A DNA stretch of 32,363 nt, taken from the NCBI GenBank assembly GCA_031258945.1, contig JAIRME010000022.1:1-32363 (forward strand), written 5' to 3'. Both the position numbers and the translations under genes were made by a program. Of the stretch, positions 26,985 through 32,363 are shown one piece after another; positions within the stretch are counted from its first letter, which is position 1, and every line of letters begins with the position of its first letter. The DNA comes from Mycoplasmataceae bacterium (GTDB lineage: Bacteria > Bacillota_I > Bacilli_A > Mycoplasmatales > Mycoplasmoidaceae). The notes beneath the pieces were generated by a model, which saw only the letters and a list, made by a program, of their open reading frames with translations, had not been told where the DNA came from and made no database searches.

Positions 26985-27120
26985 TTCGCATTAACAATTA
27001 AAATGACTTAGGTGAATCCACCAAAGTCATTTGAAATGTACAAATATTTGTATCACCTCGGTAACATAATTAAGGTATTTTCCCGTTACTGTCTTTGGTT
27101 AATGCTTTGTAAGTATATAT
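26985..27120 (-). ncRNA. L10 leader (ribosomal-protein autoregulatory element)
   Basis: On the minus strand, upstream of rplJ, AACCAAAGACAGTAACGGG (27099-27081) and GTTACCGAGGT (27066-27056) match the conserved parts of the L10 leader that L10(L12)4 binds. Next comes a strong hairpin, AAATGACTT/AAGTCATTT enclosing GGTG/CACC (27001-27032), which could act as an attenuator or block access to the ribosome-binding site. A possible -10 TATACT lies at 27117-27112. Confidence 0.85.
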
Positions 27121-27595
27121 ATTTTTTTAAAATTCAATTATTTATTTTTTCATAAAACGTTTAACCATTTTATTAAATTCATTCATAAATATTTAGGTGA
27201 ACCAACAAAAATTCACTCAATCAAACATTGATTTAGTATTTTTTGTTTTTTTAAGTTCTTTGCTAACAATTCAATTTTGCTTCGAGCTTAGTTTAAAGTA
27301 ATCTGGCGGTTATGCTAGGAGTTGGAACCCTAAGTCCAAAGATTATACACCACTTTCAACATATTGCTAAACTACCCTATTACCATTTTTAATAGACTTC
27401 GTAATAGGATAGACTTGCTGGCAAGAGTCTTGTTTAGTGGCCTTTTGAAATAAAAGTGCAATATTAAAAGAAAAAGCGTGTTTTCGGAAAACACGCATTT
27501 ATCCCTATTACCATTTTTAACTCTTATATATTAAACGATTTTTAGGAAAATTGCAAACTTTTTTTCAAAGTGGGTTATTTAGTTTTTATAAATCT
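27121..27595. other. Gene-free structured region with 18-bp direct repeats
   Basis: No gene is seen. CCCTATTACCATTTTTAA occurs twice in direct orientation (27375-27392 and 27503-27520). Around the first copy CCTATTAC/GTAATAGG forms a stem, next to the hairpin AGACTTGC...AGTCT, and both are enclosed by CTAAAC (27367-27372) and GTTTAG (27434-27439), a branched layout typical of RNA. This could be the edge of the accessory element at its right or an unassigned RNA. Confidence 0.4.
27466..27496 (-). terminator. Minus-strand terminator
   Basis: GCGTGTTTT-CGG-AAAACACGC forms a 9-bp stem; on the minus strand it is followed by TTTTTCTTTT. It would stop leftward transcripts coming from the accessory region before they reach rplJ. 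Confidence 0.75.
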
Positions 27596-27605
27596 TTAGA
27601 TTAAA

Positions 27606-28111
27606 TAGCCAACGGTTATTGGTAGGCATAATCCTAAACCATTTACATGAGATAGTAAACCTATAAGTGTATTTACCGTTACTATTGAGAACGATTGAAA
27701 ACTAGTTACAACACTACGACAAGAAGCGGAACCTACAACAAACAATATGCTAACGTGAGTCGTTAAGGGTATGAGTGAAGAAAAACAATTTTTATATGGA
27801 AAGACGTGTAATGCTATGCAACTAGAACCAACGCTGTGGTACGTGCCAGAAGTGGTGATCTTTTTATTGTTTTTCGTTAATCGCATTTAATCTTCGATCG
27901 CAAGAAGCAGTCTATTAAATGTGCAAAGATTTGGGTGTTGAATCACCATTTTTTAGTTTTGCTAATTAATTAGATTAGTTAATTTCTATAAAGAAAGAAC
28001 CAAAGAAATATATAAGTAATATCTTTTTACTAGAAATATTATTTACAAAACACAATACCGTCAAATTAACCGTTTTTTATTTTTAAGAAGTAGTTAGGTA
28101 TTCCAAATCTC
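27606..28111. other. Unassigned region with weak open frames on both strands
   Basis: On the plus strand a frame with TGA as Trp is open from 27609 to 27890 (NDWKLVTTLRQEAEPTTNNM and FLYGKTCNAMQLEPTLWYVP are samples). It lacks an early ATG. On the minus strand a 96-residue frame starts at ATG 27886 and ends at 27596. Neither shows a family motif or good SD. A plus-strand hairpin GGTG/CACC followed by six T lies at 27934-27954. Base composition is less AT-rich than nearby. It may be a decayed gene or an RNA. Confidence 0.3.
27934..27954 (+). terminator. Weak plus-strand terminator
   Basis: GGTG-TTGAAT-CACC followed by ATTTTTT on the plus strand. The 4-bp stem is short, so this is tentative; it would end a rightward transcript from the 27.6-27.9 kb region. 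Confidence 0.4.
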
Positions 28112-29101
28112 TTAATTCGTTTCTATACGCTTATAAAGCGTTTTAGCATATCTATTTGAATAATGGGTAAATTCATTAACGTGATTCATAACGGACATTC
28201 ATTTATTTTGGAAGAACATATTACTAGTTTTAATAATGGTTCCGTTGATTAAACAATTAGCAACATCAGTGGCATCAACATTACGAATTGATGAAATGAT
28301 ATAGTGTTCCATTACAACACGAGGTGTATTACCCAAGACCATGGCAATTGTTTGAATATCAATATTAGCTTCAGACATAATCGTAGCTAATGTTCTTCTT
28401 AAACTATGCGCTGATCAATAGAAACTAAATTTAGCTCATTGTCGAAATACACGGAAACCTTCACCAATAATAGATATGCTTAATTTTTTATTGTCTTCAA
28501 CAAAATATTTATAACATTCAACAGGAATATAAATCTCACGTTGCTTACAAGTTTTTTCAGTATTAATAATAATTTCAGCACGCTCTGATAAATCAATTTG
28601 AGATTTAATAAAACGTTGTGCAGGAGATAATGATCAATTAATATTACATAATTCACCAATTCTCATACCAGAGCATAATAGAGCTTCAAAAGCATAATAA
28701 ATTTTTAAACGACATAAACGAGTGTGTTGACGTTTATTAATAACCATTTTACTTAGTGGTAAATTTATTCATTCATTGAATTTGCGACGTATTAATGAAA
28801 TTTGTTGTTGATCTAAACGCGTTGTCATTTTTGAAATTTCACCAGGATGAGATTCGATTCACTTATCATTAAATTTATCATAACCGTAAAATAAATTAAA
28901 TGACCAACGAAACATACTAGTTGTACTGTGAGCAGAATTTTTATTTTTCATTAATCTAGTAATGCTATTAGCTTTAAAAATGTTTTGTTTTGGATTTTTA
29001 CTGAAACATAAACGATATTTTTTTAGCAAATAGTAATAGTATAGATTTTTGCGTTGCTTGGCTAAATTTAATAATTTTTTAAAAGTGATAATTGGTTTCA
29101 C
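28112..29101 (-). CDS. Tyrosine recombinase / phage-type integrase
   Basis: Site-specific DNA recombinase, 329 residues read through several TGA(Trp) codons. Catalytic residues can be placed: Arg147 in SGMRIGEL, a Lys in the beta-hairpin (NTEKTCKQREIYIP), His232 and Arg235 in AHSLRRTLAT, and nucleophile Tyr267 in VVMEHYI. The usual LGH motif reads LGN (Asn258), a change of the third active-site His. About 60 residues follow the Tyr, longer than in XerC/D. The start is GTG at 29101 behind a strong SD (AAAGGAG). In mycoplasmas such enzymes serve integrated elements or invert promoters of surface proteins. Here the neighbourhood suggests an integrated element. Palindromes cover its upstream region, so it may be autoregulated. 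Confidence 0.85.
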
Positions 29102-29109
29102 AAAACTCC

Positions 29110-29175
29110 TTTACCCATAATGGGTAAACAAATATACATACCAATATGCATGTTTTAGTAATGGTAAATATTTAC
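29110..29175. promoter_or_regulatory. Three palindromes upstream of the recombinase gene
   Basis: TTTACCCAT-A-ATGGGTAAA (29110-29128) is a perfect palindrome that touches the recombinase SD. ATACATA-CCAA-TATGCAT (29134-29151) is near-perfect, and GTAAATATTTAC (29164-29175) is perfect. Placed in a row over the leader and promoter region they look like operators or recombinase binding sites. The first could also form an RNA hairpin that hides the ribosome-binding site. Confidence 0.55.
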
Positions 29176-29198
29176 TTTGTAATTGAAATTATTAATCT

Positions 29199-29624
29199 TT
29201 AAGAAATAGTTAATGTAGTTGTAAATGGCGCCAAACTTTCTACGCTATCAACTTTAATTTGAAGAATAAAAGTATACACACCAACTTCAGATGCACTAGT
29301 TCATTTAACTTTATCATCAGAAATGGATAATCATGACGGTAAAGTTTGACTACCAGTCATTAAAATAACAAAATTAGGAGTAGGAGTTTTTCCGCCGTTT
29401 TTTGAATCACCTTCGATTAAAAATTGAAATGTTTGATCAGATTCTCCAGAAGTTTGAGCATTACCAAGAACGGTTGTAGGCCCATCTGTAATTGAAATTT
29501 TACTAATAGTATAACTTGGCAAACATGTCGTCAAAATAGCTGTTGTAATTCCACCAAAAGCAAAAAATGCAAACATTATTACAATTACTTTATTTTGTTT
29601 TATTCATGTTAATATTCTCTTCAT
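29199..29624 (-). CDS. Small secreted or anchored protein with one Ig-like domain
   Basis: A 141-residue product. The N-terminus KRILTWIKQNKVIVIMFAFF is a basic segment followed by a hydrophobic helix that continues to about residue 36, a signal peptide or signal anchor. The rest looks like a single beta-sandwich of the putative-Ig/cadherin-like type: PSWLSISDDKVKWTSASEVG followed by VYTFILQIKVDS, the usual 'LPxWLs...GxYtFtlqvtDs' pattern. Trp codons are TGA. An SD (AGGTGG) and a -10 TATAAT (29656-29651) precede it. It lies between the recombinase and the structured RNA, so it may be a surface or virion protein of the element. No ligand can be inferred. Confidence 0.6.
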
Positions 29625-29734
29625 ATTTGTCCACCTAAAAAACTTTTCATATTATATTACGTTTTAAATTAAATCGCTTTTGGTTCTTTGGCGATATGCA
29701 ATACAATTTTTAATGCAAGCAGTTTACTGCTAGA

Positions 29735-29768
29735 AAAGAACAAATAAAGGTTCCACTAAGAACCTTTG
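29735..29768 (-). terminator. Likely terminator of the structured RNA
   Basis: AAAGGTTC-TTAGTG-GAACCTTT on the minus strand (29747-29768), an 8-bp stem followed by ATTTGTTCTTTT. The T-rich tail is interrupted, so termination may be partial. Confidence 0.5.
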
Positions 29769-30597
29769 TACCAGTTTGGAGCTACAAATATGAAATTTGT
29801 TTTCTTTTGGGACACAGCCCTTGGCAAGAGCATAGACCTATTTAAAGACGATTATCAAAATGATAATCAGTAAAAAAGTAATTATTACGTTTTTGATAAC
29901 GTATAATCCATTTGTTTTTAAGTAGGTTTGCTCTTGCCAAGGGTGAACCTTTTTTGATATACATCACCTCCATGAAAAATGGAAAAGCATAAAGCGAAGT
30001 CTTATGCTAAAATTTCAAAAACAAAGGTGATGTTAAAAAGGTTCATTTATTGAGGCGACTTTCTTTTATAAAAAGAAACGGGTCGGCAATAAGCGGTTTG
30101 ATGAAAAAAACGCGGGCAAAATTTCACTAGCTTTAGGGCCTCTTGAGTTTTGGAAATTTTGCCTAATGCTTAAAAAGATTTATTAAGCATTAATAAATCT
30201 CCCATTTTAAAACAAAAGAAGTCGGCAAGAATTGCCGTGCACTTCTTTTGCGAGTACAACGAGTTTTCTTATACATGCCACCGCGAAACCCTCTGGGCGC
30301 CGTAGGCGAGATGCGAACACGGGCGGCGGTCAGATGCTATGCATCTTGACAGATTGAGTCAACCCTTAAATTAAAGGGTTGGTGAAAGATGTGACTCAAT
30401 TGATTTGAGACACCGCCGAGTTTCGTTTGTCTATTACCTTATTAAACAAACGAAACTGGCTTTGACAACCACACCTCACACCACCCTAATTTATTAGGGT
30501 TTTAATTTATTAAAATGAGAGAGAATAGTTTCCGGTGCTTTTGCAGCGGAAACTATTCTCTCTCATGGTGTGATGGTGTGGTTCTTAAAATTTTCTT
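29735..30597 (-). ncRNA. Giant highly structured non-coding RNA candidate (GOLLD/ROOL-like in style)
   Basis: About 860 bases without a plausible reading frame but full of long paired segments. Main stems, plus-strand coordinates: 29818-29832/29929-29943 (15 bp) enclosing hairpins 29850-29868 and 29881-29907; 29944-29954/30035-30045 plus 29961-29969/30025-30033; 30060-30067/30071-30078; 30115-30125/30153-30163 (11 bp); 30213-30222/30241-30250 with inner 30223-30228/30232-30237. Others are 30324-30330/30412-30418 (7 bp, all but one G-C) enclosing 30332-30346 and 30353-30361/30392-30400; 30419-30430/30446-30457; and 30467-30482/30567-30583 enclosing two small hairpins and a perfect 20-bp stem (30515-30534/30547-30566). 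A consensus promoter reads leftward into it and a hairpin with a T-rich tail lies at its left end. I cannot assign it to a family. Confidence 0.65.
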
Positions 30598-30602
30598 AGA
30601 AA

Positions 30603-30631
30603 ATTTTAACATATTAAAAAATATTTGTCAA
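30603..30631 (-). promoter_or_regulatory. Consensus promoter of the structured RNA
   Basis: On the minus strand TTGACA (30631-30626), a spacer of exactly 17 bases and TAAAAT (30608-30603). It is the best sigma-70-type promoter in the window and points left into the structured region; the predicted start is about 30597. Confidence 0.75.
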
Positions 30632-30683
30632 TGTCCTTAATTTATAATATTTTTGATTTCCACGATCAAAGGAAATGAATATC

Positions 30684-31469
30684 ATGGTGTCTAAGAAAGA
30701 AAAAATACAAGAAATTTTAAAACAACCGAGCATAAAAACATTACTTTTTATACTCGTTAAATGAAGTAATTTAACAAGACCTCAAATGGCTAAATTAATT
30801 AATTTAAGTGAGCGTCAAATAACTAATCTTTTAAAAATTATTGATCCTAAGCCTTACGAATCTGAAGATAAAGGTTTAAACTTAGTTGTCTTTAAAGAAT
30901 ACCCTTATAGCTCCAAAAGATTGTATAGCGCAACAAGTTATGCACAACGTCGATTAGGCGTCGTTAAAGGCATAGAGAATGGCAACCGAATAAAGTTATC
31001 CGCTAGATACGATACTAAATTTAATTTCTACGAAGTAGAACATACAGATTGATGTATTAAAGCTTTATTAAAAGAATTTGATAATAAACCTTTTGATTGA
31101 AAGCAGTATCTAACTGCACGAGAGATAGGCCAACGATGATATGAAATTTATAAAGATATTAAAGAAATATGGCACGCTGGCGTTGAAGAGAGAAAACCAG
31201 ATTTATTAATTTTAAACAAGGATTTAAAAGGACAGATTTGTATCGAAGTAGAAAATACTCCTAAATCTGAAAAACGTATGCGCATAGTTTTAAGAAGTCT
31301 TTATGCACTAGGCGACTATGCTAAACGTTTTAAGCAAGTTAAAATTTATGCGAATGAAAAACTACCAGTCTATAACAAATGGAAAAATTTGATACCATAT
31401 ATTGACTCGGGTGATGCTCCAGAGCATTTAGAAATTCTTAAACTCCATGAAAGTTTAGAGAAATACTAA
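30684..31469 (+). CDS. Winged-helix DNA-binding protein with nuclease-like C-terminal region
   Basis: A 261-residue protein read through several TGA(Trp) codons. Residues 1-55 form a helix-turn-helix (KWSNLTRPQMAKLINLSERQ followed by ITNLLKII). The C-terminal half has PDLLILNKDLKGQICIEVEN followed by TPKS, a PD-x-ExE-x-K arrangement like PD-(D/E)xK nucleases and like the replication-relaxation proteins of Firmicute plasmids and integrative elements. I infer a role in replication or mobilisation of the element. The ATG at 30684 has AAAGGA ten bases upstream; another in-frame ATG at 30675 is too close to it. The gene is divergent from the structured RNA and convergent with the RHH gene. Confidence 0.65.
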
Positions 31470-31478
31470 TTAACAGTC

Positions 31479-31539
31479 TATCTATAAAATGTATAGATAA
31501 TATTTTATCTATATAAATATAGATATTTTTTTATAGATA
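31479..31539. repeat. Left octamer array (TATCTATA/TATAGATA)
   Basis: Five exact copies of one octamer: TATCTATA at 31479 and 31506, and the reverse complement TATAGATA at 31492, 31518 and 31532. They are spaced 12-14 bases start to start, in the gap between two convergent genes. The phasing of a little over one helical turn suits cooperative binding of a dimeric protein. Confidence 0.8.
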
Positions 31540-31542
31540 CGT

Positions 31543-31929
31543 TTATTTAATTATGCTTTCAATAAAAGCTTTGATAAAACCGTTCACTGTTGTGCCGTTT
31601 TTTCTAGCAATAGCTTCAAACTTAACATAATCATCAGCTAAAATACTACACCCAGCATTTTTATATACTTTTCGTTCTAAATTTTTAGGTTGTTGTAATT
31701 TAGCAAGCACTAATTTTGTATCTATATTTTTTATAGATATCTTTTTATCTACACTGTGTGTAGATACATTAGATTTTGTTTTGTGCATAATGTAATTAGA
31801 CAATTGTTCCAAAGTTGCCGTACGTAAAGATTTATTATTTTTGTCTTTAATACGATATTTGTTTGTGTCTATCTGGTCTACTGTTCATCCAGTTAATTTT
31901 TCATATTGTTTGATGATTTGTTTATTCAT
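31543..31929 (-). CDS. Ribbon-helix-helix-like DNA-binding protein
   Basis: A 128-residue basic protein. The C-terminal 45 residues read VYKNAGCSILADDYVKFEAI then ARKNGTTVNGFIKAFIESII, a strand-helix-helix pattern with the polar turn between helices seen in CopG/Arc/Omega-type repressors. The N-terminal 50 residues (NKQIIKQYEKLTGWTVDQID) are helical and unassigned, and the middle is Lys/Ile-rich. The start is ATG at 31929 with SD AGGA; Trp16 is TGA. Octamer repeats lie upstream, downstream and inside the gene, so it probably binds them as autorepressor, copy-number regulator or partition protein. Fold assignment is by eye. Confidence 0.65.
31719..31766. repeat. Octamer repeats inside the RHH gene
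   Basis: TATCTATA (31719) and TATAGATA (31732) are exact; TATCTACA (31746) and TGTAGATA (31759) are one-base variants forming their own inverted pair. Start spacing is 13, 14 and 13 bases, the same phasing as outside the gene, although the bases also encode the Lys/Ile-rich middle of the protein. Confidence 0.75.
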
Positions 31930-31939
31930 TTTTATTTCC

Positions 31940-32037
31940 TATCTGTATAACTTTATCTATAAAAATCATAATACATTATCTATAGAACTATATAGATATC
32001 TTTTTATCTATATTTATATAGATACTTTTTATAGATA
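31940..32037. repeat. Right octamer array upstream of the RHH gene
   Basis: TATCTATA at 31954, 31977 and 32005; TATAGATA at 31991, 32017 and 32030; a one-base variant TATCTGTA at 31940. It covers the whole promoter region of the RHH gene, as expected for autoregulation, and could also serve as an iteron origin or centromere. Confidence 0.8.
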
Positions 32038-32042
32038 TCGTC

Positions 32043-32094
32043 AATAAAGAAAAATCATGGTAAGTAAGCTTTTAAGGGCTTAAACCCATGATTT
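32043..32094 (-). terminator. Terminator of the coiled-coil protein gene
   Basis: AAATCATGG (32052-32060) pairs with CCATGATTT (32086-32094), with an inner stem TAAGC/GCTTA. On the minus strand it is followed by TTTTTCTTTATT. It ends the partial gene to its right and insulates the octamer array. Confidence 0.8.
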
Positions 32095-32129
32095 AGTTAA
32101 GAATAGTTTGTTTTGAATTGTGAATTTGA

Positions 32130-32363
32130 TTAAGGATGAGATTTCATGTAGTCAGTAACGACTTTATTAAATTCATCTTGTTTATCTAAACGAGTGTTGA
32201 TGGTTTTGAAACCAGTACGCATTTCCTCTGCCAACTTTTCTACCGTTTGCTGTAATGATGTCACTACTGAACGCAAAGGAGGTAGATTGGAACTTGAAGA
32301 GGTTGTATTATCTGGACTAGGACCAGGATTATGTGGTTTACGTTTCTTAGTTTTCGTTTTAAC
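32130..32363 (-). CDS. C-terminal part of a coiled-coil protein (cut by window edge)
   Basis: The last 77 residues of a minus-strand gene that begins outside the window. A Pro/Ser/Asn-rich linker (KPHNPGPSPDNTTSSSSN) is followed by a heptad-like helix (LQQTVEKLAEEMRTGFKTIN then TRLDKQDEFNKVVTDYMKSH). No family is recognised. A short C-terminal coiled coil often serves for oligomerisation. It may belong to the same accessory element. Confidence 0.6.
   Translation of the reverse strand, partial: VKTKTKKRKPHNPGPSPDNTTSSSSNLPPLRSVVTSLQQTVEKLAEEMRTGFKTINTRLDKQDEFNKVVTDYMKSHP

Follow-up and report, generated by a model that had tools for sequence, protein, structure and literature searches.

A predicted integrative conjugative element with a MOBC-like relaxase candidate and an upstream palindrome array at the rplJ locus of a Mycoplasmataceae genome

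Features of the locus

The window, by which we mean the whole stretch of DNA analyzed here (32,363 nucleotides), is the complete contig C28 of a Mycoplasmataceae bacterium (G000), a mollicute whose 835-kb genome is distributed over 46 contigs and was read with genetic code 4. Core genes fill its first 27 kb and close with rplL, rplJ and the L10 leader; DNA similarity to the upstream regions of rplJ in relatives stops at ~27120–27160. An initial annotation had set the left border of an integrated mobile element at this conserved leader, which agrees with our comparison, and the parts it listed (recombinase, immunoglobulin (Ig)-like protein, structured stretch, winged-helix/nuclease-like protein, ribbon-helix-helix (RHH) protein with iterons, and coiled-coil protein) all lie at or near the places it gave. 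Judging by gene content and ends, the segment from 27.2 to 32.4 kb is almost certainly the left quarter of an integrative conjugative element (ICE) of ~19.4 kb. Its main features, with the adjoining leader, are as follows.

26990–27116, minus strand: ribosomal protein L10 leader (Rfam RF00557, 6.9e-8), the last conserved chromosomal feature at the left border
28112–29101, minus strand: tyrosine recombinase (integrase; Pfam PF00589, 1.6e-9)
29199–29624, minus strand: Ig-like (He_PIG) putative lipoprotein (PF05345, 2.5e-4, below the Pfam cut-off), with a lipobox-like LTTC at the end of the signal peptide
29680–30640, no strand assigned: palindrome array (the former "giant RNA"), a candidate origin of transfer (oriT) or single-strand-active region, by folding, helices and position
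30675–31469, plus strand: MOBC-like relaxase candidate of 264 aa, a winged helix-turn-helix (wHTH) with a PD-(D/E)XK domain, by motif, model folds and weak NF041423 MobC matches
31479–32040, no strand assigned: TAGATA/TATCTA iterons on either side of the RHH gene and within it (15 against 1.4 expected; at most 5 in shuffles)
31543–31929, minus strand: RHH-like protein with a C-terminal RHH-like stretch, candidate relaxosome accessory or partition protein
32130–32363, minus strand: coiled-coil protein, cut by the contig end, with its N-terminus in contig C30; the family is repeated in the genome
32286–32363, no strand assigned: overlap with G000:C30:1-78, beyond which the element runs on in C30 to ~14375

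The relatives used in the comparison include G037 (Mycoplasmataceae bacterium metagenome-assembled genome (MAG) Cc175_bin15) and G055 (MAG Po218_bin18).

An element with integration and transfer genes

C30 begins with the same 78 bases that end the window, and the gene order obtained by joining the two matches the copy in G037, where a single contig carries the full series of integrase, Ig-like protein, structured region, wHTH protein, RHH protein, coiled coil, single-stranded DNA-binding protein (SSB), VirD4, VirB4 and VirB6-like protein. Overlap and gene order together support a continuation of the window into C30. In G044, synteny with the window element extends from the RHH gene onward. 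On C30 come, in this order, genes for an SSB-like protein, YoeB, VirD4, VirB4 and a VirB6-like protein, then those for a 1042-aa protein and two small ones, and finally tRNA-Trp and ymdB; the right border, which had been predicted to lie outside the window, is thus located in this contig. The break in the assembly at the window end is explained by the repeated coiled-coil family, whose members have a variable N-terminus; further copies occur in contigs C3, C4, C7, C8 and C35 of the same genome, one copy being in the ICE and the others chromosomal.

The transfer genes are recognized by their profiles. VirB4 matches the Mbov_0397 ICE ATPase model NF045975 (E 1.9e-55) with 188 bits, which is below the 590-bit equivalog cut-off; the 553-aa VirB6-like protein matches the Mbov_0396 ICE membrane protein (NF045889, 3e-7), VirD4 matches TraG-D_C (PF12696, 1e-7) and YoeB its family profile (4e-21). 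The YoeB-family toxin gene lies inside the ICE at L063 1132-1410 (G000:C30), and its antitoxin was not identified. Of the features that define an ICE, a site-specific recombinase (PF00589 with its catalytic residues), VirB4 together with VirD4, and attachment-site (att)-like repeats with a comparable empty site are present; for the relaxase there is a MOBC-like candidate, put forward on its motif, its predicted fold and its Spiroplasma homologues. Ten relatives all keep the integrase residues R147, K183, H232, R235 and Y267; the position normally taken by His or Trp is occupied by N258. Homologues of the integrase occur in 17 of the 95 genomes of the family and at many loci, a distribution that fits a mobile element. 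At a contig end of G000 (L065 10593-10885, G000:C46) stands the N-terminal part of another integrase from this protein family, which probably belongs to another element.

Three further features describe the left end.

27146–27282, no strand assigned: joined to the promoter side of rplJ, a fragment that resembles the right end of the related element in G044:C63 (72% over 144 aligned columns, E 2e-9)
27203–27306, minus strand: attL-like end, with GCCA, an inverted repeat and a terminator-like hairpin; an imperfect direct repeat of C30:14320-14426 beside tRNA-Trp
27303–27376, minus strand: tRNA-like remnant with a degenerate acceptor stem, recognized by sequence and not called by ARAGORN

Imperfect direct repeats of ~100 bp, each with a tRNA-like GCCA, an inverted repeat and a terminator-like hairpin, bound the ICEs of both G000 and G037; their local alignment scores 60 in G000 (maximum 48 in 300 shuffles) and 71 in G037 (maximum 43). 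Just inside the left end, a degenerate tRNA-like sequence, parts of which are shared, is found in G000, G037 and G044. On the right, downstream of ymdB, the element borders directly on the 3′ end of tRNA-Trp(CCA). This tRNA-Trp locus is without an ICE in G037, G041, G043, G053 and others; in G044 the contig ends at the 3′ end of tRNA-Trp, and the ICE of G037 adjoins a tRNA with anticodon UCA. At the other border, the integrase region was not found at any of 30 other rplJ loci in relatives. The relatives thus supply empty sites at both rplJ and tRNA-Trp, and the initial proposal of an integrated mobile element beside the rplJ leader holds: it is not a gene set kept in the same order by all relatives, because it is absent beside rplJ at these 30 loci and is flanked by att-like repeats. 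Its start, on the other hand, had been set at 27466, and the element begins further left, since homology to a second copy can be followed from 27361 on, with the att-like repeat occupying 27203–27306.

The initial annotation had seen in this element a phage or plasmid captured by its recombinase. The presence of VirB4, VirD4, a VirB6-like protein and a relaxase candidate points to an ICE instead. A prophage was considered and rejected: PHROGs gave integrase families only for the window part, with two weak phage integrase matches besides, and type IV secretion system (T4SS) genes are carried on C30. No matches to the relaxase candidate or the integrase were found in the viral contig collection that was scanned with them.

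Alternatively, the segment could be an island that has decayed or is no longer mobile, with domesticated transfer genes. Its left flank is probably rearranged, the contigs are fragmented and many genomes of the genus have lone VirB4/VirD4 genes in chromosomal surroundings. This alternative is nevertheless improbable, as every ICE gene is intact under code 4 and synteny is kept with the copies in G037 and (from the RHH gene on) G044, which sit at different sites. We propose that the ICE can probably excise and pass on its own from one wall-less gut bacterium to another.

The chromosomal VirB4/VirD4 pairs of the genus are a separate matter. VirB4 proteins that share 31–35% identity with that of the ICE, in most cases accompanied by a VirD4-like gene, occur amid housekeeping genes and without a nearby integrase or relaxase at loci L135-L145 (G046, G048, G039, G054, G047, G049, G038, G051, G042, G035, G045). 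They were rejected as ICEs, their neighbors being conserved housekeeping genes, and are perhaps a domesticated DNA-transfer machine.

A MOBC-like relaxase candidate

The protein encoded at 30675–31469 is very probably a MOBC-like relaxase, as suggested by its motif and predicted fold. Aligned with six relatives, it shows invariant D176, E191, E193, K197, R201 and F219, i.e., an E-x-E-x3-K-x3-R motif with an upstream Asp. The same spacing is reportedly described by Francia and colleagues (2013) for TraX of pAD1, the MOBC prototype, with Y181 after the Arg. Two relatives of our candidate, in G055:C18 and G043, have a Tyr directly after the Arg.

MOBC relaxases consist of a winged HTH joined to a PD-(D/E)XK nuclease (PMC12857230). 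In the AlphaFold2 model (pLDDT 68), residues 12–77 align with MarR/ArsR winged helices and residues 117–264 with the restriction and nicking endonucleases BamHI, Nt.BspD6I and Can2, all with Z scores of 6–7.5. The candidate has no Pfam match, its profile found no match in a sequence search of the PDB, and its model had no Foldseek match at E <= 0.001.

A tblastn search of plasmids with the window protein gave no match. Relatives in Spiroplasma surfaced via the profile, which, run against 320 genomes of the order, extends to Spiroplasma plasmids: there, a protein of ~200 aa is matched by hhalign with 97.1% probability (5e-11), keeps the catalytic residues and is present in 42 to 46 plasmid records. 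Most of these relatives are annotated as "hypothetical protein" and a few as "replication-relaxation family" or "BlaI/MecI/CopY", and all matched plasmids are typed "non-mobilizable" by MOB-suite. Weak matches to the C-terminal part of the profile were also seen in another family of the order (G233, G234 and G243; loci L212, L210 and L211).

A palindrome array upstream of the relaxase gene

The structured stretch between the Ig-like and relaxase genes folds with an energy of −346 kcal/mol on the plus strand (z −15) and −343 kcal/mol on the minus strand (z −22). It is made up of near-perfect palindromes and comprises 18 helices with 210 Watson–Crick, 9 G-U and 3 A-C pairs, and three features stand out in or beside it.

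30462–30585, no strand assigned: conserved oriT-candidate module of closing stem, small hairpin, TTTTAATTTATTAAAA linker and long hairpin (covariance model R1)
30515–30566, no strand assigned: 24-bp hairpin with a TAGT/ACTA core, kept in place across six ICEs
30603–30631, minus strand: promoter-like site TTGACA-17-TAAAAT with TG (11/12 matches), kept in G037

Hyper-structured equivalents lie 5′ of the relaxase gene in four other ICEs (z −9 to −15) and likewise in a sixth (G064), and such a stretch is also found directly 5′ of the relaxase relative on Spiroplasma plasmids carrying VirB4/VirD4. Among 36 genomes of the genus, the covariance model R1, which describes the 125-nt module, finds only three places, each 85–100 nt before a relaxase start; on distant ICEs its matches are weak and strand-ambiguous. 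A first MAFFT/alifold alignment of the palindrome region misregistered a duplicated hairpin, and we therefore used a model-based alignment of the module instead. Between the window and G055:C3, 22 module pairs are unchanged and 19 show double Watson–Crick changes, while none has changed to G-U. In six Spiroplasma plasmids, seven pair positions are variable, with 47 double-change comparisons against 5 to G-U. Energies and covariation are equal on both strands of the array, and a test of G-U versus A-C pairs over whole regions does not decide between the strands (765 Watson–Crick, 26 G-U, 18 A-C).

Two further observations concern the array in relatives. The ICE of G037 (L048 5449-6041) contains the AAAAGAAGTCGGCAA hairpin twice, with compensatory changes between the copies, which suggests that arrays grow by hairpin duplication. 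In G043 (L049 11162-11236), a hairpin block 84% identical to window positions 30214–30288 is inverted relative to the relaxase gene.

The stretch had been read as a giant RNA serving as cargo or structural component of the element. In its fuller form, as we weighed it here, this rival reading takes it for an ICE-borne noncoding RNA comparable in kind to ROOL or GOLLD, transcribed from the minus-strand promoter at 30631–30603 toward the Ig gene. The extreme folding energy, the promoter-like site (11/12 with TG and kept in G037) and the conservation of the unpaired linker TTTTAATTTATTAAAA speak for such an RNA. We consider it unlikely all the same: Rfam gives no match even at E 5, a good terminator is lacking where the transcript would end, G-U changes are almost absent, energy and covariation are the same on both strands, and the array is always linked to the relaxase gene, even on plasmids without this integrase. 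Promoter-like sites in total are not above those in shuffles. An oriT role fits better than a giant RNA because the array is strand-neutral, palindromic, tied to the relaxase gene and also present on Spiroplasma plasmids; its hairpins would matter as DNA, double- or single-stranded. We think it reasonably likely that the array is the oriT region of its cognate relaxase. The oriT2 of pAD1 is said, again by Francia and colleagues (2013), to have a similar layout, with inverted-repeat DNA beside the gene.

A cluster of inverted repeats (IRR, IR1–IR5) "upstream of the pF gene" was described on the pSci plasmids of S. citri by Saillard et al. 2008, who suggested it as a possible transfer origin and found no pSci coding sequence resembling a relaxase (PMC2386487). 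In pSci1 and pSci2, we find the hairpin cluster immediately 5′ of the relaxase relative, and pF would, from its position, be this relative. With somewhat less confidence, we lean towards a broader hypothesis: conjugative elements of Spiroplasma and gut Mycoplasmataceae would share an overlooked module, a MOBC-like relaxase with an upstream palindrome array that evolves by double Watson–Crick changes, and this array would be the long-sought oriT of pSci-type plasmids (the IRR) and of the ICEs of wall-less bacteria.

The RHH protein and its iterons

On the other side of the relaxase gene, 15 TAGATA/TATCTA motifs occur in 611 bp around the RHH gene, some of them inside its coding sequence (31719-31751). 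Other ICEs have a diverged RHH protein (20–30% identity) and another motif, TTATTAA in G037 and GTAGAC in G055:C18, so that protein and iterons look like a private protein–site pair. Relaxosome accessories are often RHH proteins (PMC12857230), and this is the role for which we regard the protein as a candidate, with partition as the alternative.

The position of the iterons bears on another possibility, namely that the array acts mainly as a single-strand origin (sso) or promoter, like an Frpo-type leading region, and that nicking takes place elsewhere, e.g., in the iteron region near the RHH gene. Single-strand-active regions are known, such as the sso of ICEBs1 (PMC4595007) and the Frpo of F (PMC9849209); direct repeats are bound by the MOBC protein TraX (PMC12857230), and the iterons here lie across the relaxase gene from the array. 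What is conserved among the ICEs, however, is the palindrome and not an iteron motif, the iterons being different in every ICE, and we judge this possibility rather unlikely, if slightly less so than the giant RNA.

Proposed transfer mechanism

We propose that the integrase would excise the ICE as a circle and that the relaxase, aided by the RHH protein on its iterons, would bind and nick inside the palindrome array that immediately precedes the relaxase gene, i.e., at oriT. VirD4 and VirB4 would then pump a single strand into a neighboring cell. There, the hairpins may have a further role in synthesis of the second strand, and the integrase would insert the element at the 3′ end of a tRNA. 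The steps of excision, nicking and transfer are inferred. We put the probability of this overall explanation, an ICE with integrase, T4SS set, MOBC-like relaxase and a palindrome array as its oriT, at roughly 80%.

Several points weigh against it. The curated MobC model NF041423 gives only 13–20 bits with the relaxase candidate, against a cut-off of 200 (E 0.043 to 3.8e-4); the confidence of the structural model is moderate (pLDDT 68), with all Z scores below 8; and the residue after the Arg is Met in the window, G037, G055:C3 and G050. We use the name "MOBC-like" because Met replaces the post-Arg Tyr in the lineage of the window. Regarding the array, the Spiroplasma relative L223 is without one, the minus-strand promoter-like site faces it, which leaves some probability for an RNA, and the acceptor stems of tRNA-Trp in the same genomes are also without G-U changes, so the rarity of these changes is suggestive only. 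The 78-bp end is shared by a third contig, C3, since the overlap sits in the repeated coiled-coil gene, and the join of C28 and C30 is therefore backed by synteny and not proven. Finally, tRNA-Trp is not beside rplJ in relatives; together with the fragment resembling the right end of the G044 element, this makes it likely that earlier insertions and a rearrangement shaped the left side.

A second noncoding stretch

Another conserved segment lies at the left end of the ICE.

27361–28050, plus strand: conserved noncoding stretch, candidate structured RNA; counterpart at L048 2824-3508 (G037 ICE)

It is 79–80% identical to the G037 ICE, with several indels, while ICE genes reach 69–70%. Its consensus fold has z −7.5 on the plus strand and −4.7 on the minus strand (coding controls, −3.2 to +2.1), and the plus strand shows both G-U and double changes. 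Rfam has no family for this stretch, nor for the palindrome array. If the element makes a genuine structured RNA, this segment is a better candidate for it than the array, and it may hold an RNA of ~600 nt.

Comparison with known systems

ROOL and GOLLD giant RNAs resemble the array in having a very stable predicted structure within a mobile element, but the array has no Rfam match (E up to 5), is strand-neutral and is linked to a relaxase gene. The tempting "giant RNA" reading is corrected accordingly.

With the MOBC relaxases, TraX of pAD1 and MobC of CloDF13, the candidate shares the wHTH plus PD-(D/E)XK architecture and, going by what Francia and colleagues (2013) reportedly found for TraX, the E-x-E-x3-K-x3-R spacing and inverted-repeat DNA by the gene. 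It differs in lacking a significant match to the curated MobC model, in having Met in place of the putative catalytic Tyr, and in that its iterons resemble RHH sites and are placed across the gene from the array.

The Spiroplasma plasmids pSci and pSKU146 are alike in carrying a relaxase-like homologue directly 3′ of a multi-hairpin IRR, together with VirB4_plasma and VirD4. They are free plasmids, however, with a shorter relaxase protein (~200 aa) and other hairpin sequences.

Conjugation-like exchange is documented both in spiroplasmas and for mycoplasma ICEs (PMC2386487, PMC6030558), and the oriT of the latter has only been guessed at (PMC6030558). With a candidate relaxase and a delimited DNA region next to it, the question of the transfer origin becomes testable in vitro. 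The Mycoplasma ICEs (MICE), such as ICEA of M. agalactiae, have VirD4/TraG-like and VirB6/CDS16-like genes as well, together with a VirB4 of the Mbov_0397 family, which the VirB4 on C30 matches below the equivalog cut-off, and are similar in size (~20–27 kb), in a minimal T4SS for wall-less cells and in a surface lipoprotein. Our guess is that the Ig-like putative lipoprotein, which is 62% identical to its counterpart in the G037 ICE, is analogous to MICE CDS14. MICE insert at random by means of a DDE transposase (PMC6030558), whereas the window ICE has a tyrosine recombinase in place of the Mutator-like DDE transposase typical of MICE, tRNA-associated ends and a recognizable relaxase candidate. 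Mollicutes, whose best-studied ICEs depend on DDE transposases, thus also have ICEs with a tyrosine integrase and tRNA-associated ends.

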